A stretch of 30,305 nucleotides of DNA, taken from Saccoglossus kowalevskii (taxonomy: Eukaryota > Hemichordata > Enteropneusta > Harrimaniidae). The stretch is taken from the NCBI RefSeq assembly GCF_000003605.2, contig NW_003123415.1:1753-32057 (forward strand), read 5' to 3'. Under the pieces are notes generated by a model. The model saw only the letters and a list, made by a program, of their open reading frames with translations. It had not been told where the DNA came from and ran no database searches. Positions within the stretch are counted from its first letter, which is position 1; each line of letters starts with the position of its first letter. This document shows, piece after piece, positions 1,543-29,350 of the stretch. Made by a program: the position numbers and the translations under genes.

Positions 1543-3582
1543 ATGTTTTTATACATGTTTATGTCTCATTTACAGGAAAGCGTACAAGATGCTACTGAAG
1601 TAAGCAAAGTAAGTAAAATAAATATGCTACACATATTCATCCTACTATAGGTGTGGTATATATGGGCAATGGTGCAGTGAGTAGTGTCTTCGCCTCGTCC
1701 CACGGAGGTTCAGGGATCAATTCCATTGTGTGTTTGGTATACATGGGGGATGGTACAGTGAGTAGGCGGTCCGCCTCACACCCCAGAGTTTCAGGGATCA
1801 ATTCCATTGTAGATGTGGTATATATGGGCGACGGTGCAGCGAATAGCGTCTTTAGCTCTCCTCACGGAGGTTCGGGATCAATACCATTGTAGCTGTGGTA
1901 TATATGGGTGATGGTGCAGTGAGTAGCATGTTCGTCTTGCACCAGAGAGGATTGGGAATCAACTCCATTGTAGGTGTGGTAGATATGGATGACAGTGCAG
2001 TGAATAGCATGTTCGCCACGCACCGAGGAAGTTCGGGGACAACAGCATTGTAGGTGTAATCCATCTAAGAGAAGGGCAACTCTAATCTCAAACCAAACAT
2101 GCTTCTGCGATGTATACTGATTGCAAAAATGCATATTCTGGTGAAAATGGTAAACAAAACATGTAATTTTACTTCCTGAAAACCTCTACTAAGTCCTGAA
2201 GTGCGATTTAATGAATTTATACGACAGTGTAAACTATACGTTGATGAATACCGCTGGTTGGGTTGGGTTGCGTTGGTGTTGGACAGTGTATTGCATTACA
2301 TTCCTTCAATTAATTGGTGAATGTCGCAAGCATGTGTTTTAACATTGTTTCAATAAGTAATGGAATCGCACCGGTAAATTGCCTGTGGTAGTGTATGAAA
2401 ATATTTTAAAAAGACACTGTCCTCGTTCATCTGAACTATTGAACTATTAAACCATTTAACATTTTTACAATAAATTTTTTGCAGGGTTGGAGCACCACAC
2501 AAATTGTCATTGGCTCTGCTGTTGCTGTTGTTGCGGTTGTTTGCATTGGTACTGGTTGCTATTATGCAGCACCTAAAATACTTTCCTGGATCAAGCTGGG
2601 AAGTGCTGGAAAATGTGCTCTAGTTGGAAAAGGTGCAGTTGCTGGAAAAGGTGCCGTAGCTGGAAAAGCTGCTGTGGCTGGAAAAGCTGCTGTGGCTGGA
2701 AAAGCTGCCGTTGCTGGAAAAGCTGCTGTGGCTGGAAAAGCTGCTGTGGCTGGAAAAGCTGCCGTTGCTGGAAAAGCTGCCGTGGCAGGAAAGGCTGCTG
2801 TGGCAGGAAAGGCTGCTGTGGCTGGAAAAGCTGCTGTGGCTGGAAAAGCTGCTGTTGCTGGAAAAGCTGCTGTGGCTGGAAAGGCTGCTGTGGCAGGAAA
2901 GGCTGCTGTGGCTGGAAAGGCTGCTGTGGCTGGAAAAGCTGCCGTTGCTGGAAAAGCTGCTTTGGCAGGAAAGGCTGCTGTGGCTGGAAAGGCTGCTGTG
3001 GCAGGAAAGGCTGCTGTGGCTGGAAAAGCTGCCGTTGCTGGAAAAGCTGCTTTGGCAGGAAAGGCTGCTGTGGCTGGAAAGGCTGCTGTGGCAGGAAAGG
3101 CTGCTGTGGCAGGAAAGGCTGTTGTGGCAGGAAAGGCTGCTGTGGCAGGAAAGGCTGCTGTGGCAGGAAAGACTGTTGTGGCAGGAAAGGCTGCTGTGGC
3201 AGGAAAGGCTGCTGTGGCAGGAAAGGCTGCTGTGGCTGGAAAAGCTGCCGTTGCTGGAAAAGCTGCTGTGGCAGGAAAGGCTGCTGTGGCAGGAAAGACT
3301 GTTGTGGCAGGAAAGGCTGCTGTGGCAGGAAAGACTGTTGTTGCAGGAAAGACTGTTGTGGCAGGAAAGACTGTTGTGGCAGGAAAGACTGTTGTGGCAG
3401 GAAAGGCTGTTGTGGCAGGAAAGACTGTTGTGGCTGGAAAAAGTGCTGTTGGAACAGCTGCTGTGACTGATAAAGTTGCTATGGCTGGAAAAGCTGTTAG
3501 AATTGCAGCTGTAGCAGGAAGTATTGCTGCTTGTATTACTCAAGAAAAGATTGCAAAAGTCTATAAAAGCACATATGGATGA
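1543..3582 (+). CDS. Single-pass membrane protein with (GKAAVA)n repeat, two exons
   Basis: I do not recognise this protein. Exon 2 (2485-3582) follows a good acceptor, TTTTTTGCAG. Exon 1 ends at 1608 before the strong donor GTAAGT and joins in frame (phase 0). In-frame ATGs lie at 1543, 1555 and 1561 after a TAG at 1537, all in weak initiation context. The protein would be 387 or 381 residues. Alternatively ATTTACAG at 1568-1575 is an acceptor and 1576-1608 is a 33-nt internal exon with the true start upstream. Numbered from 1561, residues 22-45 are a Val/Ala-rich transmembrane helix. Residues 58 to about 334 are 46 exact six-residue periods, consensus G-K-A-A-V-A, with a T-V-V variant clustered near the 3' end. 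A C-terminal tail of about 48 residues follows. One lysine per six residues alternates with small hydrophobic residues, which might suit packing or cross-linking; this is inference. Poly(A) candidate at 3902. Confidence 0.72.
1648..2055. repeat. 81-bp minisatellite, block 2
   Basis: Five further copies of the same ~81-bp unit, lying inside the intron of the repeat-protein gene. The gap between this block and block 1 is about 240 bp and holds the short upstream exon (1576-1608). Either the exon was inserted into an older array or the array expanded on both sides of it. Confidence 0.88.
2608..3441 (+). repeat. 18-bp coding tandem repeat, 46 periods
   Basis: GGA-AAA (Gly-Lys) codons recur exactly every 18 bases from 2608 to 3436, which is 46 periods with no indel out of register. 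Two main unit types alternate in blocks, one with GCTGGAAAAGCT and one with GCAGGAAAGGCT. Units near 2940-3060 repeat as larger blocks, which indicates recent unequal exchange or slippage. Units encoding GKTVVA are concentrated at 3290-3430. The unit has no stop in several frames, so the other forward frames and one reverse frame are also open here. Those are shadows. Confidence 0.95.
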
Positions 3583-9013: not shown

Positions 9014-10200
9014 GTTGTTAACCGTGATCGATATTCAAAGTGCTATACCTAACGTTGAGGTACACATCCACATATCCAAACAGGTGATCATATACCTTGT
9101 GATTGTATCAAGTGGTCGTCGTGGTCACGCTGACTGTACGTATATCCACACAAGATGGCGGTTTTCAAAATAAGCATGCTATGAACTGTGGGATACATAC
9201 ACGATATGAGATGCACCCGGGCGCATCTGATTACATCTAATTAGTAGCTGGACGTTTCGGCCTGCTTCCTTTCGAGCCGGTAAATAAAACAAGTTATGGC
9301 CGTGGTATAAATGATATCAAACTGAAAGGTACTTCTGATAGCATTCAAAGTAGTGTTGATATCTAGTATACATAGCCCGATCTAGACTGGCGCAGTCGGC
9401 GCGATTAATTTATTTTTATAGTTCAAATAAAATACAAAAATTCGCGAAATGGAGGTGTTAGCGCGAAATCCCCTGTAACTGTGAAATCACCCCGACTGGT
9501 TTATTCTGCATCGATTTTTCAACGGGTAATTATGTTAATGATGTTCTAATTGACAATCATCTAAGCCAATCACACCGTCTCTTCAACTGATCTCTGACCG
9601 AGAAGACGTCGTGCGAGTTAAAAGTATATATGTAACCTTACCCTACGTCTCCGGCCGACGAGTCCGTGCAACTTAGTATCGCTATACAACGCATGCGCAG
9701 TTTTTTCCCCTAGATGAGTACACCGCAAATCAACCACTATTATAACTCCTTACTGTAATCCGGGATACTACTAATAGTACGACAGTCCATACAACACCGC
9801 TTCCTTACAGTTTTTAATAAAAAAAAAACATTTATTTTCAGATTCCAGATTTATTTTCAAAAATCGTATTTTTTTATTTATTTCATGTTTGGAATTTTAA
9901 TTTTATGAGTAAAGTTTTTATTTTATTAGTGAAGTCGCATTTCATGTGCAATAATTCGAACTAGATTCGACGGGGGAGGGCTCATTCAAAATGACAGGTT
10001 TATTTTGTGTGTGAGTGTTGACACATCGGACAATGAACATAATAATTTGCAAGAGACTCGTGGTTCGCTGAAAAAATCAAATTTGATTAGACAATATCCC
10101 GATTTGCCACCTTCCGATTGCTGGATATGGAAAGCCACAGCAATTGTACGTCGTAAAATAGTATGTCATGTAGTGCATTTACCATATTATAACGTAACTA
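9014..10200. other. SMIM8 upstream region, no gene recognised
   Basis: Presumed promoter and 5' UTR of SMIM8 followed by intergenic DNA. It is less AT-rich than most of the window at 9040-9300 and 9580-9700. An open frame at 10005-10241 runs without an internal ATG and ends in the minisatellite. I find no family signature in it. Confidence 0.45.
9152..9161 (-). promoter_or_regulatory. YY1-like motif upstream of SMIM8
   Basis: AAGATGGCGG on the plus strand matches the core of the YY1 consensus. It lies about 140 bp upstream of the SMIM8 start codon, a common position for this factor at animal housekeeping promoters. Binding is not shown by sequence alone. Confidence 0.35.
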
Positions 10201-10201
10201 G

Positions 10202-10438
10202 AGTGCAAAGTGCGAAAAAAGAATGGAAAGTTGTGGAATAGTGGTGTAAAGTGCGAAAGCAGGGTGCAAAGTCGTATAATATTGGTGCAAAGTGTGAGAT
10301 TAGAGTGCAAGGTAGTGGAATAGAGTTGTAAAGTACAACGTATTGTAATAGTGATGCAAAGTGTTAAACTAGAGAGCAATGTAGTGGAATAGTGGTGGAA
10401 AGTGCGTAAGTAGAGTGCAAAGTAGTGGAATAGTGCAA
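10202..10438. repeat. Minisatellite array A (GTGCAAAGT orientation)
   Basis: Diverged tandem units of about 39-40 bp, each made of two half-units, of the form GTGCAAAGTGCGAAACTAG followed by AGTGCAAAGTAGTGGAATAG. It is the reverse complement of the array at 10572-11022. Confidence 0.85.
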
Positions 10439-10571
10439 TCTGATTAAAATCTGATGTAGTGTACGGGCTTTAATTATTTTGGCTATAAACTAATTTCAAT
10501 TTTATTTTTTATTACTTTTGTTATTAATGACTTTTTATTTTATTATTTTACTTTGATTTTGTGATTTTGAT
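10439..10571. other. Spacer between inverted minisatellite arrays
   Basis: About 130 bp of AT-rich unique-looking sequence separating the two opposite-orientation arrays. In a transcript it would form the loop of a long hairpin. Confidence 0.7.
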
Positions 10572-11022
10572 TCTCTACTACCTTGCAGCCTAATCTCACA
10601 CTTTGCACCAGTACTCTACCACTTTGCACCACTATTCCACAACTTTTCTCTCTATTTTTACACTTTGCACTCTTGTTATGCACTTTGCACCACTATTCCA
10701 CAACTTTTCTCTCTATTTTTACACTTTGCACTCTTGTTACGCACTTTGCACCACTAACCCACTACTTTGCATTCTAGTTTTGCACTTTGCACCATTAGTC
10801 CACTACTTTTCACTTTAATGCACATTTTGCACCACTATTCCACTACCTTGCACTTTAATTTCACCCTTTGCCCCAATATTCTACCACTTTGCACTCTAGT
10901 TACACACTTTGCACCACTGTTCCACTACCTTGCTTTCTTGTTTCGTACTTTGCACCAGTACTTCTCTACTTTGCAATCTAGTTTCACTCTTTGTACCACT
11001 AATCCACAACTTTGCACTCTAT
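10572..11022. repeat. Minisatellite array B (CACTTTGCACC orientation)
   Basis: Tandem units of about 39-40 bp, consensus CACTTTGCACCACTATTCCA plus CTACTTTGCACTCTAGTTT. It is the same family as 10202-10438 but in opposite orientation and longer. A block near 10615-10680 is repeated almost identically at 10680-10745. The plus-strand open frames here (10583-11048) have Leu/His/Cys/Thr-rich low-complexity products and are artefacts. Confidence 0.88.
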
Positions 11023-15930: not shown

Positions 15931-18900
15931 ATGGACGAGCCCATGGAGGACCAGGGCGGTGTGAATCAATCAAATGAACAACACCAGCAACAGTCGATCG
16001 ACACTGAACGAAAGAAATTACCGTCTCTCCTGCGGCCAGTAGGTCAGTTACAATTTAAGACATTAACATTTCCACAGTGTAGTTTAATAGATTTGATCCA
16101 CGGTTTCCGGATCCAATACTGTAATCGTGTCTGATTCATTTATTCCAAAATACCCTACATGGTGTCTAAATCGATCTTCTGAAATTAAACACGTAATACA
16201 GTGATGGGTCAGTACTTAGGAATGAACATGTCTCGTTTTTTAACTGGTATCGCATTTCTATTTCTACTAAACATCATGACATCATGTTTTGCAATTTATT
16301 TTGCGAATATTTGCCCATCCCATTTTTCATCAGAAATAACGTTTTTCGTTGATCAAATAACTCAGTCAGTAACTAAATAGCTATACATAAAAAAAGAATA
16401 AAAGGCTTAGAAAAGTATAGGAATAGAGTCGGGAGGTGGATGAACCATTCTTTGATTTCTTGATCTAAAAGTAAACACCAGCTGTGGATATTTCCCTGCA
16501 CAGTTATATAGTATTTTTTGTTTGCATATAAATGCTCTCCATTTCTGCTCGGTATATCAACAACACTTGATAGAGGCTAGATGTTCTACTTTGTGACATA
16601 CATTGTATCCACTCATCCACATTACAGAACTCTCCTCTAGAGAGTCCCTGTTTTGCTTAAAAGTTCTTATTCAAAGAAAAAACACACTCATTCGTAGTAA
16701 CAATTGATTTTCATTTCAGTTCCTGACTTTGTTATTTTTTTGCATTGTGAATTATTTTGATTCTAAATGCAGATCGTTACTTTTCAGTTTGGTATTTTGT
16801 TAGTGTTCGTGCATTCATTATTTCTGAAGTTTTTGATAATTTTCTTAACTGAGTCGCACTAATTAACACAAGTTCATAACAACTTTCTGCTCAAGAGAAA
16901 CAATAATTTTGATTTAATTAATGCCAGTTCTATTTACAATTGCATGTCCTGGTTATACATGCTATGTAAAGAAAGGTTCACACAAGAATGGCCCCAGGTA
17001 TTGTGAAACAACTTCATTTTTACTAGTTGACTGCCATGCATTTAGCTACATACAGTGATATGAATGCTGTGCAAATAGATTTACTAAGTTGTAATTTTTT
17101 CAGTCACATGATCAATTTTCCAGTTTTGTGTAGGAGTACTATTTGGCATGCACATTAGATGTAAACTGATGTAGATGATTACCCTGTTAATCTTATTCTA
17201 TAAAAATTGAAAACTGATTTATCAGCATTGTAGTCTGGTTTGCCTAACTGAGATATCCAAAGTCTGGAATTCTGCATCATTTGTAATGTGGTAAACCTAG
17301 CTATAATAATGTATGGCAACCAATTCATTCACATTTGGGAGTTGAATACCATTAAAACAAATGATCAGATTTCCCTGATGCTTACACTATGGTTTTATTT
17401 TATGCTGTTATTCATTAAACCCAGATAAAAAGTTTGCACAAAACATAGGTCTAACATTCATGAATATAGTGATTTTGGGATCATTTACCATTAGTTTCTA
17501 TGGTAAAAATTTCTCATAGATTTCTTAAAACTTTTTGTTTGGTTACGTACGTTAAAAAAAAAAACTTATAAGTTAGATGCTTATAGTTATCAATAATTAT
17601 AAGAGACATTCATTTTCTATGAAATAATGCTGTAACATCGCTTCATGTGGAAATGATTCCGAAAATGTCCATTTATTTGGGCATTTTTTATCTAAAAGAA
17701 ATATATCATACTAAAATAACAGAAAAGCTGGTGACATGATTATGTGGCACAAAACTTGTGATAAATTTTTTGCTCCTATTTATTAGGTCAAACCGTCAAA
17801 TACTACCTTAAATTAGCAAACCAATCAACGCATGTAGTCAATCCGACTGTGCAAGTTGTGATAGCTCAAAATCAACCTTAACAGTTACAGTATCAATTCA
17901 TGAACATGTGTTTTTAGGTGACCATGACCCCAATTGCTTAATGCCATATAAACCTGGCCTAGATTCAGTATGGACTAAATGCCCAGTACTGAGTGTGTCA
18001 TCATCATCTGGAGATACAAAGCCTTCATGTTTAGCTGCAATATATCATCATATATAACATCATCTAATTCTGAATCAGTACACATTCAAGCAACATTTAA
18101 ATTCACCAGTTCATCTGATTTCCATAGATGGTATATACTCCCTGACTTGCATCTTTGTGGGTCTAACATTTATTGTGTTTATTTAAAATTGATGTATTGT
18201 TACTGTGAATTTCATAAAGGTATGAATGTTTTTTTTTGGAAATTTATAAAATATTTATACAAAATTTACCAAGAATGATCTTTGCACTTCATGCAAATCT
18301 AAAGAATACACTTTCTTAAGCTATGTATAGAAACCATTTGGTACTGTACATTACCCATGATGCTTTGCAGGGTTCTTTCAATCTTTATATAAAAATATAT
18401 ACATGTGTGTCGTCCAAGCCCTAGCTCATTTAACTGTTTTCTATTAGTATCCTTTCTGAACTGAGAATACCAGCCTCCATGTCTAATAAATATGGTGCAC
18501 GTGACTTTAGTGTTGCGTCCCAAGAGAAGAATCTCGCATCAGGACTTGTAATTAACTAGAACTGGCAGTGACATTTTTTTCTCTTCCATTAGAACAATAA
18601 TAGCAAGCCTTCCCCCTGTGAATTCTACCCATGTATTTTAGTGTTACACCAGTGAAGACCCTTGTATTAACAAGTATATAATGTATTATTTAATGTATAA
18701 ATCAGTGCTTGTACAAAACTGAGCTGGTTTGCATGATGGTTCACCTGTCTCTAAATGGCTGCATGTGAAACCATAACTGTGTTCACCAGGAAATTAGGGC
18801 TGACCTGTGTTTAATCATGGGGCAGTTGCAACATGTCATATTCTTGTCTTGCCATATGTCAAAGATTGGAGATAGAGATTGTGTTGCAATGAGCTTCTCT

Positions 18901-21900
18901 GGGCATGTGATGAAGAAACTTTCCTGCAGTCTTGTAAATGCTGGTTCCTTAATACTATAGTTTATAAATTAATTCAGTAAATTTTTTTCCATGTTGTACA
19001 TTCATTTTCAAAGTGTAGTTGCTTATCAACTCATTTAAATGAAACTCTAGGTTTCAGTCTTCTCTGATAGACCCTGTTCTGAACTGTTCCATGACTACTG
19101 AATCTCAGTCTGTTATTTTTCAATTAGGCCCCACCAAAAAAAAAGTTAAAAAATAACTTCAAAAACTAAATGGCTGCCACCCACATCTGAAGTCCTACAT
19201 GACACAGGCTTACAGCAAATGTTAGCAGGATACCATTGGCACAATTTTAGTTGAAAAAAAAAATTATAATCCATAGAGCGTTCTAATAGGAATAGTAATC
19301 TTTATTAACATCAGATTAATGTAATTAGTTGCCATACACCACATGTATGAATCATAACTAAAATATGTCACCAGTGAGTTGTTTACATGGTTCAAACATT
19401 GTTTACATGCTAACAGTATTTTACACTCATGGTTAAATTGAATTCTTGATGAAGTATAATGTTATACTTTTCATGCAATTTGACGATTACAAAAATGCCC
19501 ATATTAAGATTTAATATACACTGTACTGTTGTGACTCTGAAGGTGAACCCACTAGATTTATGACAGATTACTATGACAACACTCTAGATTTAGTGGTCTA
19601 TAGGTATATGAAGTAGAACACAATACAGTTTTTTAATTGTCACTGCTAGAAAGTTCACATGATGCCCTATTGTTTTAGAAAATTTCAGGCTATTAAATGA
19701 CAAATTTGAAAGTGGTTTTGTTGTTAATGTTGGAAACTTGCACATCACAAACTATTATTATTTTCTTCTTTCAACCTCAGTCACTTCTGCCTGAGTTGGT
19801 ATTACCATATTGCATCTTGCTATGAGTGTAACCAGAAGAGAAGCTACATGTTAGATGTAGCTGTTTTGACTTAGGTACATATATGCTTGGTGAAGTGAGG
19901 TGAGGTGAGGTGAGGTGAGGTGAGGTGAGGTGAGGTGGGCCACAGACTTTTGCCAGTTATCAGATGTGCTGTTGAGACCCTTTGTTGCCGCTTCATCGTT
20001 TTTTTGACACAAATACAAGGTTGATACTATGGTTCCAAATTTCAAGTTGTGTATTTACTCTATTAAAAAAAATGCTTTTTTGTTTACACTGGATCATTAA
20101 AATATTGAAAGCAAATTAGTCATCACCTGTGCACATGTGGGAAGCGTCAATAACAACGCATGCTAAAACCGCAAAAGTTCATGGGTAGACGCTTGTTTAT
20201 AAACAATGACACACTATGCATGCGCAGGTGTCATCTTCCCTATTAAACTGTTGACACACCTTATTTATGTAAATGCATGCACTACTACGGTTACATAGCA
20301 ATCCGGTAATTTTATTCCAATGCCCACACATCACTGGGTTATTCATTTACTGCTGGGAAGTATGCACAAGTAATTCTACAAAGTATTAAAAGGAAAAATC
20401 TTTTCTTCAAATATCTTTACATTTTCTATGATATCTTCAATTCACAATGCAAATTTTATTTCAAACAGACAGTATATGATTATAGCAAACTTGACTTTGA
20501 TCAGATACTGTAATTGTTATATTTGTTGCTTAAAAACACATTTTAAACATTATGACATGTGATGTTAGTTGACAATAACAATAATTATCATCCAGTGATA
20601 CTGTAAAGTACTTTATTTTAGCTTGAATTAATTTTCGTCGAAAAGGCTTTTTGCGTGTTTTGCATGGAATTTTTTTTTTTGCTGATTTTTGACGAGTTGA
20701 ATGTAAAATATAGAAAAAAAGGTATATTTGCTGGATTTTATTTTTCACTGAATCATTCCTTCAGCCAAAATAGCAAAAATTAATTTCAAGCAAAAATAAA
20801 GTATTTTACAGTAAAGCATCTTTGGGCAATTAATTGATCTATGAATTGTTTTCTCCATACAGTGATGGGTGCAATTACTAAGGAGGAATATTCCACCCAA
20901 TACTGGCCTAAATTAGAAAATGCCATTATTCAGCTGTTGACACAGACACCTGGCGACTATATTCCTATATCGTATGAACAAATGTACAGGTAAATATTAT
21001 GGTTTGAAGTGCTGAAAACCGTCTTACAAATTTATTTTCAGTTTTTATTTTAGTGTTCAATAATTTACAGGCATTCATGACTTCCTGTCTTAAAGGAGTA
21101 TGTCCATTTGCATTAAGATTGGCACTTGACCCACATGCTATTTGGTGCTATGTGTAGCATGGGACCATTAACAACACACTTGGTCACAAGAGCTAACTTC
21201 CCTATAAAATTAAATAAAACATTTCACAGTTTTCTCTGATTTGCGAAAAAATTTACCTCAGTAAATGAAATTAAATACAGAAAGTTACCGTAGTTACAAA
21301 TCATTATTACCTTTGAGTGTGTAGTAGGTGGTGTTGAAGGGGGTGTTGTTAGTAAATACAGACAACAAATAGCTAATAAAAAAAATTGAAAGCAAAAAAA
21401 TATTAGTCGATGTGAATGGGCTCCCCAAAAATTTCCTTAGTGAGAGTGTAAGTGTAAACTCCTATAGTTCAGTTTGTATTTTTACCTACCTAGTTACTAT
21501 TTCCGTCTTGTTGCTTCATAGCTTGTGTACATTGTTTATGTTCATTCATGTTTGTTTTTTTAAATTCATGTTTGTGATGATTCTCATTCCGATCTTCATG
21601 CATCAATAACAAATAGCTGAACTCTCAAATGCTTTGTGTGATTCAATACCCCAACTTAGTTATTCACTTTTTGAGATCAAACAAGTGAATTAAATTTGTT
21701 AATTTTTTTTTAAACATAATGCTTACTGTGCAGTTGATTATTTTTTTTTTTTTTATTTCAGTTGTGTATATAAATGTGTTTGTCAGCAGCACTCAGAACA
21801 GATGTACAATGATCTAATTAAAGTAGTAACTCAACATTTAGAAAGACTGTCAACGGAACTTCAGGCATGTTATATTCATTACTCATACTTTAATGGGGAA

Positions 21901-24900
21901 TAGGAAACAGTTATGGGGAACAGGAAACAGTTATGGGGACCAGGAAACTGTTATTTCCTTGACAAACGCAATACACAGTGAACCTGTCTAAACCAGACGT
22001 GAGAAATTGTTTGACTTAATGTGGTGTTCAGTAATTACTTGTAGAAGTCTTTTATATATTAAAAGCAGTTTCCATCCCTCTGATTGTCTTCCTGCTCACA
22101 ATTACTTTCTGTCTACTTACCTGGCACACTTATATATTGAGCGATATTGCAGTAGACGTTAAACTTATACATTCCTGTGCGTTGAGTTCTGTTCACATGA
22201 AATATTGTCGCACATTACCACAAGATAACTTGATGTTATAACTTTTCAACAAATCACATGCAATGTACGTACATGTTCCGTATATGCAAACTAGCTAATC
22301 TACATTTATTATCACCTGATTACACTCAATAGTGTCCACATTATCCATTCATCCCGTGATTGGTGCACTTCACCAAAGATTGCAAACATACACAAAAATA
22401 ACATAATTTCGTTTTTATTCAAACGATGAAATGGCCCAAAAATTACATAAATTATTTTTTATAAAAACTTACCGGTAGATGAAATGGCCTTTTGACCCCA
22501 CCCCCAATGTTTGTATATAACAAATGTAGAATGTGACATAGATGTGTGAGAAAGAAAGAAAGTTCATTCATATTATCGTTGTTTTGGTCTGTAGTCATTT
22601 ATCAGTGTAACAAATGTTTCTGATTGAGAGATTTACTCTATTCTAACTGAGGATCGACTACATCGCCAAGCACAGTTGATGCTTTGACTGACATAATGCT
22701 TTAACAAATCTCTGTCACAGAAGCACTTTAATTGTCTTGGAATGGCACGACTTGTTGGAAAAGTGTATTTTTTTTATTTTTTGTTTTGTAAGTTGTAGCA
22801 CCGTCCCTCAACACCTTTTCCTTTAAAAGATCCTTTGAATGATCAATGTTTGGAAATTGAAATTCTGTGAGATTTTGTAGATGTTCAAAATATGCACTAT
22901 TGGAATAGTTACCAGTGATGTTTTCTTTTTCAGGCAAGTTCGATTGATGTCTATGTAGAACGTTTTAATTTTGCACTTACGCAGTATACACAAGCATTAG
23001 GGGGCATTGTTCCCATCTTTAACTACATGGTAAGTATTCATGTTAAGGGGCATTGTTCCCATTTTTAACTACATGGTAAGTATTCATGTTAAGGGGGATT
23101 GTTCCCATCTTTAACTACATGGTAAGTATTCATGTTAAGGGCATTGTTCCCATCTTTAACTACATGGTAAGTATTCATGTTAAGGGGCATTGTTCCCATT
23201 TTTAACTACATGGTAAGTATTCATGTTAAGGGGGATTGTTCCCATCTTTAACTACATGGTAAGTATTCATGTTAAGGGCATTGTTCCCATCTTTAACTAC
23301 ATAGTAAGTATTCATGTTAAGGGACATTGTTCCCATCTTTAACTACATGGTAAGTATTCATGTTAAGGGCATTGTTCCCATCTTTAACTACATGGTAAGT
23401 ATTCATGGTAAGGGGCATTGTTCCCATCTTTAATTACATGGTAAGCATTCATGGTAAGGGGCATTGTTCCCATCATTAATTATGTAGTAAGTATTCATTG
23501 TAGGGGGTGTTTCCTCCCCTACATCACAGTCCCTCTATCCCCAGTCTGAAAACGGCTATTGTCTAAGTGTGAATTACCACCCAATGCTCGTACAGACCTG
23601 GGTATGGCTTTCCGCAAAGCATAGTCTTTTGATAGCAGAGCATTCTATTGAAATGATCAATTCATTGTTCCCTGCATATTCTAGCTTTTACAACTGAAAT
23701 AGACCATATTATAATACTTTTTTATAAGTTTAGAAGCTCAACACAATTTTTTAATCGGCATATAGTGGCATATTGACATTATTATTCGTAAATATCACAC
23801 TTAAATTTGAGGTACTCGATCTGTCAGGGATCGCAACATGGAACTTTTCTAACAACATTGAACGGTTGACCCTTTCTATTCCTCATGTGTTTTAGAAAGG
23901 TCAATGTTTTTTCATATATTGGATAGCTTCACTTTTCCGTTCAAATTAAAGATGATCTCTCGCTGATTCAATGCAATTTGAATTTTTGTGTCATTATTTT
24001 TTTTGTTTTCAAGCATATATTTGGAATGTAGTTTACAATGCTGGTGACATCATGTCTCTAAGAATAACATCCTGCAGTATCAATTCTTTAGCACTGCCAT
24101 GAATTGAGTAAGGAGACTTTTTTTTTTGCTTCGAAAATTTAATTACAGGCGCCATTTTGTTTTTGATTTACAGAACTTACTTGATGCGTTGTCAGCGGGT
24201 TGGCCCCTTTTATAGTGAGAAAATAGCATTCAACCATAATATTTGTTTTTCATTTGAAAAGATATGTACATTTACTTTTTGGTGATGTCAGATGTTCATA
24301 TTTTGAAAAAATCCTGGTAATATATTCAGCTCTGTTTGCAGTTTGTGATTGTAGTGTGTAAGTTGTATACGTTCAGCTTTGTGGCTAATTGTCCAAGGTG
24401 TGAACGGTTTATTTAGCTGCAACCAGCCCTGGGACATTAGACTGCCAAGTGTTTCCAGTCCTGGGATAGAGGGACTGTGTCTACATGAATGCAATTGGGT
24501 CTATGCAATCATACAAGATTAGCTTAAATCTTAATTAAGCTGAAGCCTGTACTCATGCCTGCTCATACATTAACTCTGATGGTTATCTGTACTGCAATAG
24601 GTTGCTAGGAAACCGTAGAATTGGCCTTCATTGATTCTCGCCAAAATGAGAGTACCGTTAAAGTCCTATTATAAACCGCGGTTTATATTACAATGTATCA
24701 ATTTAAAAATTGGGATCAAAAGCTCAAGTTCGGGGTGCGGTTTCTATTACGTACATATTGCAATCACTAAATGGGCGTGGTCATTTTTTGTCCACAACAC
24801 ATGCACAAAACAAACAATACACCATACAATCTCTTGTACCGTTGTTTGTGCCATGCCAATTTTAAATAAAATGCATTCTTTTTATTATATTTTTTCAGAA

Positions 24901-27900
24901 TCGTTTTTATGTTGCAACAAAGCTCAACACGGATTTAAAAGATGAATTATCACATTTATACACAGTTTATGTTGCAGACAAACATGTTACTGGGTTATTT
25001 AGTGAGTATTAAGTTACCATATTTCATTCACATGTTGTTTGAAATCTGACCTTTGAAAATATCAATAATCAATATTCCCACAAGATTACAGAATACATGT
25101 AATATTTGTATTATCAGTAGCGGCTTTAGTTTATAATGGAAGATAAAACACTGGAATTTGTTTACTGCTATATTATTGTTGTTTTTATTGTGAGTAATTT
25201 TTCGTATTTATTACATGTACCAACAAAATGACAAAAAATAACCTTGATACTTTTTCTTTATTCGTTCATTTTGTTCTGTGATATTGATGGGTATAATCCC
25301 TTTCTACATATTCTACAGTTTTCATGATTGATGTGCGCCCAATTTACTGTTGCCATATGGGTTTTTAGTGTTTGATATGTTTGTATTCCACTCGCCAATG
25401 CCTGCTTGCTTCTCGTTGTATGATGTGTCTTAGAACCATTCTTAGTAACATGTGTTTTTTCCAGCTTTGCTTGAAGAAGCCCAACACAAGCCTTTTACTG
25501 TTTCTCCTCCAACTATGGCAAATATTATTAAAGGACTTCACCATCTTAAACCTGGTAAATACACTATTATATCAATGTCTGTGGGGTGCAGTTTATTGAA
25601 AGATGGACACAGCTAACTAGTAAAAAAAATTACCATTTCCTGAGGTTGAATTGCTAGAGGAAAATAAAATAAATTATTTTTTTAACCTTTTCATAACCAG
25701 TTCCCTCCATTCATCACAAATTCACAAATAGTTTTGTTTATAGTCTGCACTTTCCTTCAGAAGATTTAGACGTAAATAAATAAATAATAATATTTTGAGT
25801 AAAAACCGACTCGAATTTTGTCTATTGGCTCCCAAATTAGAGTTCATTTCCAGAAAAAAAAGTGCAGCAAATATGCAAGATTTGATTTACAATAGTGGTT
25901 TACAAGTTATGTACGGTTACCTGTAATGATTTACACTCTGCATATGAATACGACCGTATAAGAACAAAGAGAGATGTGTGGATTTACTGAAATAAATTCT
26001 GTATAATAATACACTCTGTTTTTTCATCTTGGAAATGAGACAGGCCTTTACAATCATCTGGATTAACTGGTAATAATATTGCTAACTGAATTTTAAACAT
26101 TTTTTTCTTTTTCTCACAGCTTATGCACAGCTAAAACCCTATTTATTTGCTAAATTTATCCCCAATATTTTACCTCCTGCGCAAGAGGACCTTTTAGAAC
26201 AGTATGTTGAAGAAACAAGGCAAATGCAACAAGAACTCATTGAACGTCAAGGATATTCAAGGTTTGATTTGTTACTACAAAGGTTTATGCATTTCTTACT
26301 GCTGTAATGTCTTGAGAAGTCACAATAGTCATTTTGCTGAGTATCCTAAGGGGTTACACAAGGTACAGTTTAGTTTGGTGAGTGTCCTAAGGGGTCACAC
26401 TAGTCCATATCACATATTGTTTCTGAAAACAATCTTACCACTATCTTTGCAGAAAAAAATTGTATGCCTGATAACATTTTGAGAATTCCATCTCCACACA
26501 GACCCACTTTTTAAACAATAAGTATATTCTTGTCAATAATGTCTAAGTGAATTCCATACTTGCTTTCTTGTTTTTAATTTAAATAATAGATGTTTTGCCC
26601 ATGATTTTTATTGCTACCTCAACCCTTCACCCACACAACTACCAAACATTACATGCGCAACTCGCTAAAACTATTTTGCTCCTAGAATAAATTTACTCTA
26701 AACCAGCATATATACCATATTTCTTTAACAACATTTAGAGTTTTTTGCCACAGACCAGATTAGTATGACAGATCTACTGTAGTCAAAACCAAAATACATT
26801 GTATCATTATATTAAATTTGAAATTATTATCTTTTGGAATAAATTTGATTGATTGATTAGGTATGGTTTTGTTTAAAGTTGGAGTTGTATTTTTCTTTAT
26901 TGTCCTTGCTACATGTAGTCACAAAAGTCAGTTTAGTTTATGTCCTAATTGGTCCTGAGTGTTGTAAGGGACCACTTTAGTCTTTTTTATGAGTGTTCTA
27001 AAAAATTTGGTGAGTGCATGCTCCAATACTGATGGAATTATATGTATTAAATAATAATAATAACTGGGGTACTGTATGGTAAATATAAAATACATTGCAC
27101 AGACAGAAATAAACAATATATAATAAGAAACTATATCTATTATGAAAATAAAACTCCTTTGTTTTTACATGTATTTGATTTGGTATATTGTATTTTTTAA
27201 ATATATGAGCAATGCAATACTACAATTGCATATTGTGTTATTTTTTATTCTTCAAATAAGGATTTCCTTTCCTCCTTTATATAATTCACAAGCTAAGATG
27301 ACTACTTTTGCATTGCATTTTTATTAGCTCTGTATTCTAGGCAAACTAGTACCGTACTTCCCCGAGTATAAGCCCAGGGGCCTGAACATTTAAAATCGGG
27401 AAAAATAAGGGGTGGGCTTATACTCGAGGACCACCTCGGAAAAAATATTTTTTTGCTGTGTTTAAAACTGTAACCATCTTCCCAACTTCGAAACATTATC
27501 TAAAAAAACAAATTTCCGTTCACAGCGCCAGTCTCGGAAGGATATTACGTCTTTTTGAGGGAAAAAAGGAGAAACAAGTCTTCATTGATTTCAATGACAC
27601 TTTTTACAATGAAGAAACAAACATGTTCATAAAAATACACACATTTTATTACAATACGATTTACATACCGTCTGAATTTACGGTGCAAAAATGGGTAGGG
27701 TCTGTAGGAAAACTCCCGATACAAACTCTCGATTTCCGCCATGGTTTCATCATAATTTGACATGAACAACTTCCTTTGACCTCACAGGTCACGTCTTTCG
27801 TTAACCAATGAAAATGATGTGTCGTACAGTCGAAGTTTTCTGATTATTGACGAAGTATTTTTTTCAACGCAATGCGGAAGTGAATTACCGCAATGTTAAA

Positions 27901-29350
27901 ATGCAATTTGTTAACACTGATTTCGACAAAAAACGGTGACGTTTTCCCCTAAAAGCTGTTGATTCGCAATTTTCGAAAGGCAAACTAAGGATGAGAGAAG
28001 TATTCACCCCTTTCACAGCCGCCAACAAGTCAAGTTGAAGAATAGTTTGCTCGTTCACACCCAATTCACGATAGTCTCAATAGACAAGATTATTCGGGGA
28101 AATAAAAACGATGATCAGTGACCAGGTTTCACAACTTGACGATGACATTTTTGCCGTTTGAAAAACTACTACTCAAAAGAAATATGGATTATTTCAGTAT
28201 TGCAATTTGCAACATCGAGGTTCATTCCGAGTAAATAACATAATAGAAAACGTGCAAACTATGTTCTGTCACGTACATTCGCCCGCCGTGAACCAAACTA
28301 CCGTACCAATCATGATTTTTATGCAATGAAATACACTTTTTACATGCGTATTTTAATAAATGTTGTCGATGCCCGGTAAAAACACCCTGGGCCTATACTC
28401 GGGGATGCCCTTAACTCGTAAATGTCCAAAAACAGAGGGGTGGCCTTATACTCAGGGAGGGGCTTATACTCTGGGAAGTACGGTAAGTTTAAGTAGTGCC
28501 TATACTTTGTTTATGTTATATTTCTGTCACAAAAGATTGAAAACTTCTGCACAAAATGTTCAATTGTGTAATGATGAATTTCTTTAAAGTGATTTTGTTT
28601 TGTTTGTTTCTAGGGATAACCAAGGAAGGAAAAGGCCTGGTGAAGACAGTATGCAAAGTAGGTAATTGTTATATTGAGTTTGAAAGAAATCTGACATGAT
28701 ATCCTGAATTCAAATTTAAACATCTTATCTGATGCCGTAAGACATTATTTTTGGGTTTTGATATTCTATATTTAGAGATACATCTTCAAGAAGCATACCG
28801 GTACATAAACTAAATTATTGCATACTGCAAATGCTTAATTTAATGGGTATTAATTTTGCTATTTTCCCTTATGAGTAAATTCCACTAAATTAAATCTATA
28901 TGAACGTGTAAAATATCAAAAAAGTCATTGTTTTTTGACCAATTCGTGAAAATTAAAACACAGTGAATATGTTCAAAACATGACAATAGTGAAAGTAAAT
29001 GGTTTTGCAGTATATAGTTTAGTTGGTTATTAAAATATAACTTATTTTGACCACACTACTGTCATTTATACAGTATGCTAGAAAAGTGGTATTTGTATTC
29101 TATGGTACAAACATAGAATATAGTAGAGATGGGATCACAGTGTTGCAGCAATATATTTGTAGATTAACTTCATAAGGTCAGCAACATGCATGTAGATTGC
29201 CTTTTTTACTGTCATGTAATGAACCACCTAACTATAAAAACAAAATTATTTGGTTTACTGGGATACAAACACACTGCTGACTTATTTTTTTCTCTTCTTT
29301 CAACAGAATCTGTGTCGTCAAGTTACATGCCAAAGAACTCTTCCAGTTGA
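15931..29350 (+). CDS. CACUL1: CDK2-associated cullin-domain protein 1, nine exons
   Basis: Orthologue of CACUL1 (CAC1/C10orf46), a cullin-repeat-like protein reported in mammals to bind CDK2 and promote G1/S progression. Exons: 15931-16042, 20863-20989, 21762-21864, 22934-23029, 24899-25001, 25465-25554, 26120-26261, 28614-28657 and 29307-29350. They sum to 861 nt, all in frame: 286 residues. Family hallmarks are [11 protein letters not shown] (49-59), [13 protein letters not shown] (67-79), [13 protein letters not shown] (83-95), VERFNFAL (122-129), LKDEL (159-163), [11 protein letters not shown] (195-205), [10 protein letters not shown] (222-231) and basic GRKRPGED (262-269). The tail is Ser-rich. 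The start has purine at -3 and G at +4, after an in-frame TGA at 15880. It is shorter than the ~369-residue human protein because the N-terminal extension is only about 40 residues. Intron 3 uses a GC donor. The exon 8 donor at 28658 (GTAGGT) was chosen because it gives the [14 protein letters not shown] end; GTAATT at 28662 would shift frame. Confidence 0.95.
19895..19934 (+). repeat. (GTGAG)8 microsatellite
   Basis: Eight perfect GTGAG pentamers. Read in the sense of CACUL1 transcription, each junction is AG followed by GTGAGG, a fair match to a 5' splice site. The tract lies 4 kb downstream of the real intron 1 donor. Confidence 0.95.
20599..20813. mobile_element. MITE with ~37-bp terminal inverted repeats, TA target
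   Basis: 215-bp element. The left end 20599-20635 begins TACTGTAAAGTACTTTATTT and the right end 20776-20813 is its imperfect reverse complement, ending AAGTATTTTACAGTA. The outermost TA on each side fits a TA target-site duplication of the Tc1/mariner type. It has no coding capacity. Its right edge is 49 bp from the exon 2 acceptor of CACUL1, so it probably overlaps the branch-point region. A second, eroded copy lies at 13230-13393. Confidence 0.88.
20990..21761 (+). other. CACUL1 intron 2
   Basis: GT-AG intron of 772 bp, phase 2. The acceptor follows an exceptional run of about 14 consecutive T and then TATTTCAG. An open frame at 21412-21609 inside it is T-rich and unremarkable. Confidence 0.9.
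21865..22933 (+). other. CACUL1 intron 3, GC-AG type
   Basis: The exon ends CTTCAG and the intron starts GCATGT. The acceptor is TTTTTCAG at 22926-22933. Only this boundary joins ..STELQ to [11 protein letters not shown] in phase 0, matching the LQAS..ERF pattern of the family. No GT donor near 21865 keeps frame with that alignment. GC-AG introns are a small minority in animals. Confidence 0.85.
21891..21950 (+). repeat. Three 20-bp G-rich tandem repeats
   Basis: Three successive 20-bp units of the form TTATGGGGAACAGGAAACAG begin 26 bases after the GC donor. Each unit carries a GGGG run, a class of sequence known to act as intronic splicing enhancer downstream of weak 5' splice sites. Confidence 0.92.
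23001..23490 (+). repeat. Tandem duplication of exon 4 end and its splice donor, 11 copies
   Basis: The true exon 4 end (GGGCATTGTTCCCATCTTTA then ACTACATG) and its donor GTAAGTATTC are followed by ten tandem copies with a period of 45 or 46 bp. GT positions are 23030 (authentic), 23076, 23122, 23167, 23213, 23259, 23304, 23350, 23395, 23441 and 23487. Nine of the ten copies keep GTAAGT; the copy at 23441 is GTAAGC. The first three units (46+46+45 = 137 bp) recur as the next three with the same diagnostic variants, so a trimer was duplicated as a block. The last two copies are the most diverged. Confidence 0.97.
23525..24479. mobile_element. Non-autonomous DNA transposon, 955 bp
   Basis: Perfect 17-bp terminal inverted repeats, CACAGTCCCTCTATCCC at 23525-23541 and its reverse complement at 24463-24479, with partial similarity further inward. 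CTACAT lies directly outside the left end and one base outside the right end; aligned as a 7-bp duplication it has one mismatch. A target-site duplication of 7-8 bp would fit an hAT- or P-like element. No transposase frame is visible. The minus-strand frame 24288-24494 crosses the right end and is not a gene. Confidence 0.7.
24670..24687. repeat. 18-bp perfect palindrome
   Basis: TATAAACCGCGGTTTATA is its own reverse complement. It lies in CACUL1 intron 4, 210 bp before exon 5, next to an imperfect second GCGGTTTCTATTACGTACAT near 24736. It may be a protein-binding site or a transposon remnant. Confidence 0.8.
25002..25464 (+). other. CACUL1 intron 5
   Basis: GT-AG intron of 463 bp, phase 1, donor GTGAGT, acceptor TTTTTTCCAG. 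Nothing else recognised. Confidence 0.9.
25555..26119 (+). other. CACUL1 intron 6
   Basis: GT-AG intron of 565 bp, phase 1, donor GTAAAT, acceptor TTTTTCTCACAG. Nothing else recognised. Confidence 0.9.
26339..26402. repeat. Short duplicated segment in intron 7
   Basis: GAGTATCCTAAGGGGTTACAC and GAGTGTCCTAAGGGGTCACAC lie 41 bp apart. A more diverged relative (GTGTTGTAAGGGACCACTTTA) lies near 26959. Confidence 0.6.
27352..28483. mobile_element. TA-flanked TIR transposon, 1,132 bp
   Basis: Ends begin CCGTACTTCCCCGAGTATAA and are inverted repeats at 23 of 24 positions (27352-27375 against 28460-28483), flanked by TA on both sides (27350-27351, 28484-28485). The subterminal motif GGGCTTATACTCGAGG and its variants occur near both ends (27414, 28388, 28443, 28460) and could bind transposase. 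No full transposase is present, so it is non-autonomous. The TA target suggests the Tc1/mariner/pogo superfamily. A minus-strand frame beginning [18 protein letters not shown] (ATG at 27740-27742) ends at a donor-like GTATGT (27663-27668). Confidence 0.85.
28658..29306 (+). other. CACUL1 intron 8
   Basis: GT-AG intron of 649 bp, phase 1, donor GTAGGT and acceptor CTTTCAACAG. Nothing else recognised. Confidence 0.8.

Follow-up and report, generated by a model that had tools for sequence, protein, structure and literature searches.

In the hemichordate Saccoglossus kowalevskii, the end of coding exon 4 of a CACUL1-like cullin-domain gene has been repeated in tandem, together with its 5' splice site, into the intron that follows, giving eleven donor sites 45-46 bp apart. 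The array occupies 22997-23498 of the 30,305-nt stretch analysed here (the window; contig NW_003123415.1, positions 1,753 to 32,057), and all coordinates below are window positions, with features on the forward (+) strand. Comparable arrays are the 'mirages' of amphioxus, tandem repeats that span exon-intron boundaries in the Adh3 and globin genes, at either end of the exon (PMC3087553). We consider it very probable that the Saccoglossus array is a minisatellite of this type in which the first donor is used and the extra copies are ignored, the array being probably near neutral.

The donor array and its host gene

The first-pass annotation of this stretch described eleven tandem donors, and Tandem Repeats Finder recovers the same structure as a 46-bp unit in 11.0 copies with 94% matches. 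By this program and by register tiling, each copy comprises the last ~29-33 bases of coding exon 4 and its GTAAGT donor. The unit can be divided as '29+17' or as '33+13' according to the register chosen: where the exon has TTAGGGGG, internal units have TTAAGGGG or GTAAGGGG, or are one G shorter. A 33-base core (at most 3 mismatches) is matched 10 times in the window, which has a G+C content of 35%, and in none of 100 shuffles, so a chance origin of the array is excluded. Used as a query against the 572 Mb genome assembly, in a search that leaves simple repeats and very frequent words aside, the array finds a single place, and on that result a transposon-like dispersed unit was rejected. A scan of viral contigs for relatives found none.

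Donor positions were located by script and their U1 pairing energies computed with 11 bases of U1. Donor 1 (23030-23035), which ends exon 4 in the gene model, reads ATG/GTAAGT with the break after ATG, and at -11.0 kcal/mol is the strongest exon-end donor of the model, the others lying between -4.5 and -8.3 kcal/mol. GTAAGT recurs at donors 2 (23076-23081), 3 (23122-23127), 4 (23167-23172), 5 (23213-23218), 6 (23259-23264), 8 (23350-23355) and 9 (23395-23400), seven extra sites that show no difference from donor 1 in the 9-11 bases tested. Successive donors are separated by 46, 46, 45, 46, 46, 45, 46, 45, 46 and 46 bp. As had been stated in the first pass, nine of the ten extra donors keep GTAAGT, the exception being donor 10 (23441-23446), which reads GTAAGC and pairs at -8.0 kcal/mol. 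The full G/GTAAGT is kept in only 8 of the 11, donor 1 included, because a count of conserved positions also shows the -1 G gone from donor 7 (23304-23309, G to A) and donor 11 (23487-23492, altered at both -3 and -1), and this loss takes the predicted pairing from -11.0 to -7.5 kcal/mol. Two further donor-like CATG/GTAAGG sites, absent from the first-pass list, lie in copy 9 (23408-23413) and copy 10 (23454-23459), each at -8.5 kcal/mol. Within the array, 13 of 43 GTs pair with U1 at -7.5 kcal/mol or better, compared with 28 of 1949 elsewhere in the window; the remaining 85 GTs of intron 4 reach only -6.2 kcal/mol, and eight donors, donor 1 among them, pair more strongly than every other exon end of the gene model. 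Seven more strong U1-pairing sites, GAGGTGAGG at -10.2 kcal/mol, occur in a (GGTGA)n repeat in intron 1 (19889-19937).

The host gene (15931-29350) is modelled with nine coding exons, at 15931-16042, 20863-20989, 21762-21864, 22934-23029, 24899-25001, 25465-25554, 26120-26261, 28614-28657 and 29307-29350, which join into an open frame of 286 codons. Exon 4 is 96 nt long and in phase 0 at both ends, and its end is copy 1 of the array; introns 3 and 4 measure 1069 and 1869 nt. The predicted protein matches the Pfam Cullin domain (E-value 1.2e-13) over residues 52-214, a region that includes the exon 4/5 junction, as well as cullin-3 chains with a best E-value of 3e-8 (among the matches listed, 14 of 17 are cullin-3 and 3 are weak cullin-4B). 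Because the cullin-3 alignment is continuous across the exon 4/5 junction (...ivpifNYM/NRFYv, break after NYM), copy 1 is the coding copy, which bears out the earlier view that the repeated unit comprises a genuine coding exon end and its donor. The name given to the gene in the first pass fares less well: domain layout and homology establish a cullin-domain gene that is CACUL1-like, and CACUL1 itself is our assumption from the short cullin-domain layout, an identity by domain and not by CACUL1 sequence. Searched against the genome assembly, the protein gives six matches, all at this locus (contig C1603) and in the correct order; as the assembly shows the gene at this place only, productive splicing presumably must come from it. 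Upstream of the array, exon 3 apparently ends at a GC donor (21865, CAG/GCATGT), from which the join to exon 4 is in frame, and a 20-bp repeat present three times at 21893-21954 begins about 30 bp past that donor.

Growth of the array

A single base distinguishes tiles 1-3 from tiles 4-6, two stretches of 137 bp, so a three-unit block has been copied, and the earlier suggestion of stepwise expansion by trimer duplication holds. In three pairs of copies (2 and 5, 3 and 6, 4 and 9) all 46 bases agree. Most departures from the consensus fall in copies 10 and 11, farthest from the exon, and exon-side copy 1 is not divergent. The probable history is that a 46-bp segment over the exon 4/intron 4 junction was duplicated in tandem and that the array was then enlarged in blocks, by unequal exchange or slippage.

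The same pattern bears on whether the array exists at all. Short tandem arrays are easily mis-assembled, and one amphioxus mirage, BflGb6, appeared aberrantly assembled in a genome draft according to a supplement legend (PMC3087553), so that a true locus of one or few copies might have been multiplied by mis-assembly. We think this improbable, as the copies differ at many positions and are arranged in nested blocks, a pattern that plain read duplication would not give, and the window holds other long minisatellites found by Tandem Repeats Finder. We therefore treat the array as real, with its copy number as given in a single assembly.

Retention of GTAAGT in nine extra copies does not call for selection on the donors. 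Changed positions make up 4 of 90 donor bases and 14 of 370 in the rest of the unit (Fisher p 0.76, in a test of low power). Because donor bases change as often as the rest of the unit, they have no extra conservation by this weak test, and recent copying alone suffices to give the observed retention.

Immediately beyond the array, 23500-23524 aligns in register with the unit as a possible decayed and partial twelfth copy. In 5000 trials of each kind, base shuffles reach the score of this alignment 0 times, dinucleotide shuffles 8 times and genomic stretches 2 times, in a test chosen only after the alignment had been seen. Unanchored local alignment gives no significance, with 1380 and 1009 of 2000 shuffles reaching the score under two scoring schemes, and 1158 of 2000 when the transposon flanks are joined. 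A decayed twelfth copy extending to 23524 is thus suggestive only. TAGGGGG occurs in the window only at the two array edges (22998 and 23501), with none on the other strand; outside the array the window has 0 occurrences, where 100 shuffles have a mean of 0.36 and at most 3. If ten units are removed, a 46-bp spacing of the TAGGGGG edges remains, and motif and spacing together fit a duplication between short repeats, that is, a microhomology origin. Counting against this origin, 178 of 2000 shuffles align as well as the two array edges do, and the possible decayed twelfth unit could account for the right-hand TAGGGGG instead. Directly after 23500-23524 lies an element with terminal inverted repeats CACAGTCCCTCTATCCC and GGGATAGAGGGACTGTG (23525-24479), which is dispersed, its first part having matches at 39 other scored places in the genome.

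Which donor is used

Donor 1 yields the 96-nt exon 4 and the full 286-aa protein. A TAA at 23066-23068, seen in the gene model and checked in the sequence, is in frame for any transcript using donors 2-11, and because it precedes donor 2, exons 4 of 142 to 553 nt made with these ten donors all give the same 158-residue product, the truncation that the first-pass annotation had anticipated. Messenger RNAs with a stop upstream of later exon junctions are generally subject to decay; the TAA lies upstream of further exon junctions, and decay of mRNAs made with donors 2-11 is therefore expected.

Where several donors compete, intron definition favours the donor nearest the downstream acceptor and exon definition the donor nearest the upstream acceptor. 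The duplication would have kept an intact exon end and donor in first place, which would leave the extra copies intronic. Exon 4, flanked by long introns, is probably recognised by exon definition, in which case the spliceosome would pair 23030, the closest strong donor, with the acceptor immediately ahead of 22934, and the rest would be spliced out as intron. If a later donor were used now and then, it would bring in the in-frame stop, and the resulting transcripts would be expected to be cleared by nonsense-mediated decay. In a study of human data by Carranza and others (PMC9225289), competition between sites of near-equal strength favoured the upstream donor where the flanking introns were longer than 250 nt. 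Five minigenes, each carrying a pair of identical CAG/guaagu sites, used the upstream one exclusively; when the sites were weakened, larger constructs skipped the exon. Because introns 3 and 4 are long and the competing donors strong and nearly equal, this human two-site rule, applied here, predicts that donor 1 carries nearly all splicing. Hence the cell would take the first of the eleven donors, one of two outcomes that the first pass had named, and long introns and upstream preference would account for this with no special device.

RNA structure was considered as a selector of donor 1 and is not supported. For donor 1 the nine donor bases are predicted to be free of pairing with a probability of 0.016; the value is 0.009-0.029 for eight of the other ten, 0.05 for donor 11, 0.22 for donor 7 and less than 0.001 for the two GTAAGG sites. 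No inverted repeats of at least 20 bases were found in 22801-23700.

Several observations weigh against the preferred explanation. The proximity rule was established in human data and for two competing sites only; among human events taken before sites were filtered for equal strength, about 60% went in favour of the downstream one (PMC9225289). The intron-centred rule favours the last donors. A minisatellite in human IFI6 gives downstream donors that are used (PMC4526556, citing Turri 1995), so extra donors of this kind can be active. Finally, a boundary array was seen in 0 of 50 sampled kinase matches, which gives no ground for calling the arrangement general in this genome.

In a variant of the preferred explanation, to which we give somewhat less than even chances, donor 1 is dominant and accidental use of donors 2-11 accounts for a detectable but unregulated minority of transcripts. 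The seven extra donors that repeat donor 1 exactly and the lack of any predicted accessibility advantage for donor 1 would both permit such a leak, for which the used donors of IFI6 (PMC4526556) are the best argument. Against it, the downstream site was not seen in the identical-site minigenes under exon definition (PMC9225289).

The first-pass annotation had also proposed that the array buffers the loss of donor 1 or titrates U1. Many strong U1 sites are indeed clustered here, and the extra donors could in principle back up donor 1, or recruit U1 for exon definition or for blocking early polyadenylation. However, a back-up donor cannot rescue the protein when all ten later donors bring the stop, and donor bases are not preferentially conserved, although the test is weak. 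Intron 4 contains one AATAAA (24865), whereas introns 1 and 7 have more and yet no such adjacent array, with the qualification that intron 1 does contain (GGTGA)n with its seven U1-like sites. Neither the buffering nor the titration proposal is supported, and a role in redundancy or U1 recruitment seems to us very unlikely, the least credible of the explanations considered.

Mirages, related systems and genome context

The case for a near-neutral array with donor 1 in use draws on its likeness to the amphioxus mirages. As described there (PMC3087553), mirages often contain splice signals, vary between haplotypes, leave regular splicing undisturbed by reverse transcription PCR, and are proposed by their authors as a source of new introns. 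Mirage and Saccoglossus array alike consist of a head-to-tail unit in the minisatellite range (here 11 copies of 45-46 bp) placed across a genuine exon-intron boundary (here an exon end that is coding by cullin homology), with splice signals in the extra units (here GTAAGT in 9 of 10) and with concerted inner copies and edge copies escaping homogenisation (here copies 10 and 11 are the most divergent and copy 1 is not). Amphioxus BflGb9 repeats the 3' exon boundary, as does the array here (PMC3087553). The differences are of degree: the 11 donor-side copies here compare with a duplicate in BflGb9 and 3-6 acceptor-side units in BflGb6, and the 46-bp unit with 150-160 bp in the globins and 10-72 bp in Adh3 (PMC3087553). 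Since it agrees with mirages in every sequence feature compared, the array can be classed with them on sequence grounds, as a rather extreme donor-side case.

Other known systems are less close. IFI6 (6-16) likewise has an exon-end minisatellite giving a series of donors, but its downstream units are used in variant mRNAs for different isoforms (PMC4526556, citing Turri 1995), whereas here every extra donor adds a stop. Repeat expansion has also made a splice-site array in the polyubiquitin gene UBC, whose tandem AGGT sites are dual-specific, serving as donor or acceptor, at in-frame intervals of 228 nt (PMC10809524); the unit here is 46 nt, not a multiple of three, and its copies are intronic. 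A UBC-type dual-specific array was rejected for 22997-23498, which contains no AGGT. Variable-number tandem repeats (VNTRs) in human segmental duplications share minisatellite expansion at exon-intron boundaries with consequences for splicing, but concern recent paralogues with novel introns or coding repeats (PMC2812944), whereas here there is a single gene and no intron gain is seen.

Arrays of donor-like sites are ordinary in this genome. Three GGTRAGT at separations of 20-50 bases are matched 6699 times genome-wide, many matches overlapping within the same arrays, compared with 9183 for the reversed pattern; such arrays, abundant and not enriched over the reversed control, are therefore something that a genome rich in minisatellites yields as a by-product. 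A unit that includes a coding exon end is less usual. Among 50 of 143 genome matches to kinases, a small, uneven and weak sample that includes several long single-frame matches, no array across a splice boundary was found. An array of period at least 10 was present at 17 of the 50 loci, and within 60 bases of the match edge at two. Both were dropped as exon-boundary cases: one (L070) lies beyond the exon and reads as intronic, and the other (L044) covers a stop codon, with no splice site seen. The L044 repeat (999-1528 of that locus) consists of two tandem 265-bp copies, 98% identical, over the stop codon of a long single-frame kinase gene.

This context also bears on regulation through non-productive mRNA, another of the earlier proposals. 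The array might act in the manner of a poison exon, with extra donors used at a regulated rate and the stop tuning the amount of productive mRNA, possibly by copy number. The eight donors that pair with U1 better than the gene's other exon ends, and the one and the same 158-aa product of all ten later donors, are consistent with such a regulator, as are two precedents: the used donors of the IFI6 minisatellite (PMC4526556) and human MIR137HG, where VNTR length is positively associated with the spliced share of transcripts, though the donors lie in the downstream pre-miR-137 sequence (PMC6692358). On the other side, the donor bases give no sign of selection (4/90 against 14/370, a weak test), the unit occurs at no other place in the genome (in the search described above), donor-like arrays are not enriched genome-wide over the reversed control, the mirages reported leave splicing unchanged (PMC3087553), and the exon-centred rule predicts donor 1 (PMC9225289). 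We find the regulatory proposal unsupported and improbable. Slightly less probable still is its strongest form, a ladder of up to 13 competing donors in which copy number sets the share of stop-bound transcripts and so acts as an expression dial.

Elsewhere in the window, repeats are plentiful. A family of 81-bp tandem repeats, which also shows periods of about 160, 213 and 318 bp, occupies 12-2057, and about 45 copies of an 18-bp unit lie at 2629-3440, where over the translated stretch one + frame is open as (KAAVAG)n and one - frame as (PATAAF)n, possibly a repetitive protein. At 10199-11021, arrays of a 41-bp repeat run in two opposite directions (GTGCAAAGT... and CACTTTGCAC...), with about 200 bp between them. 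In intron 7, a 1.1-kb stretch (27350-28485) with 26-bp inverted repeats at its ends, 96% complementary, looks like a DNA transposon relic.

The array is a natural test of splice-site choice by the spliceosome, offering it many near-identical donors at a spacing of 45-46 bp: an exon-centred proximity rule would select one end of the array and an intron-centred rule the other. We found few minisatellites at exon boundaries described, a class from which new introns have been proposed to arise, and to these the array adds a strong case on the donor side. Should donor 1 prove to be the sole donor in use, the array would show how freely repeats of this kind can expand without harm.
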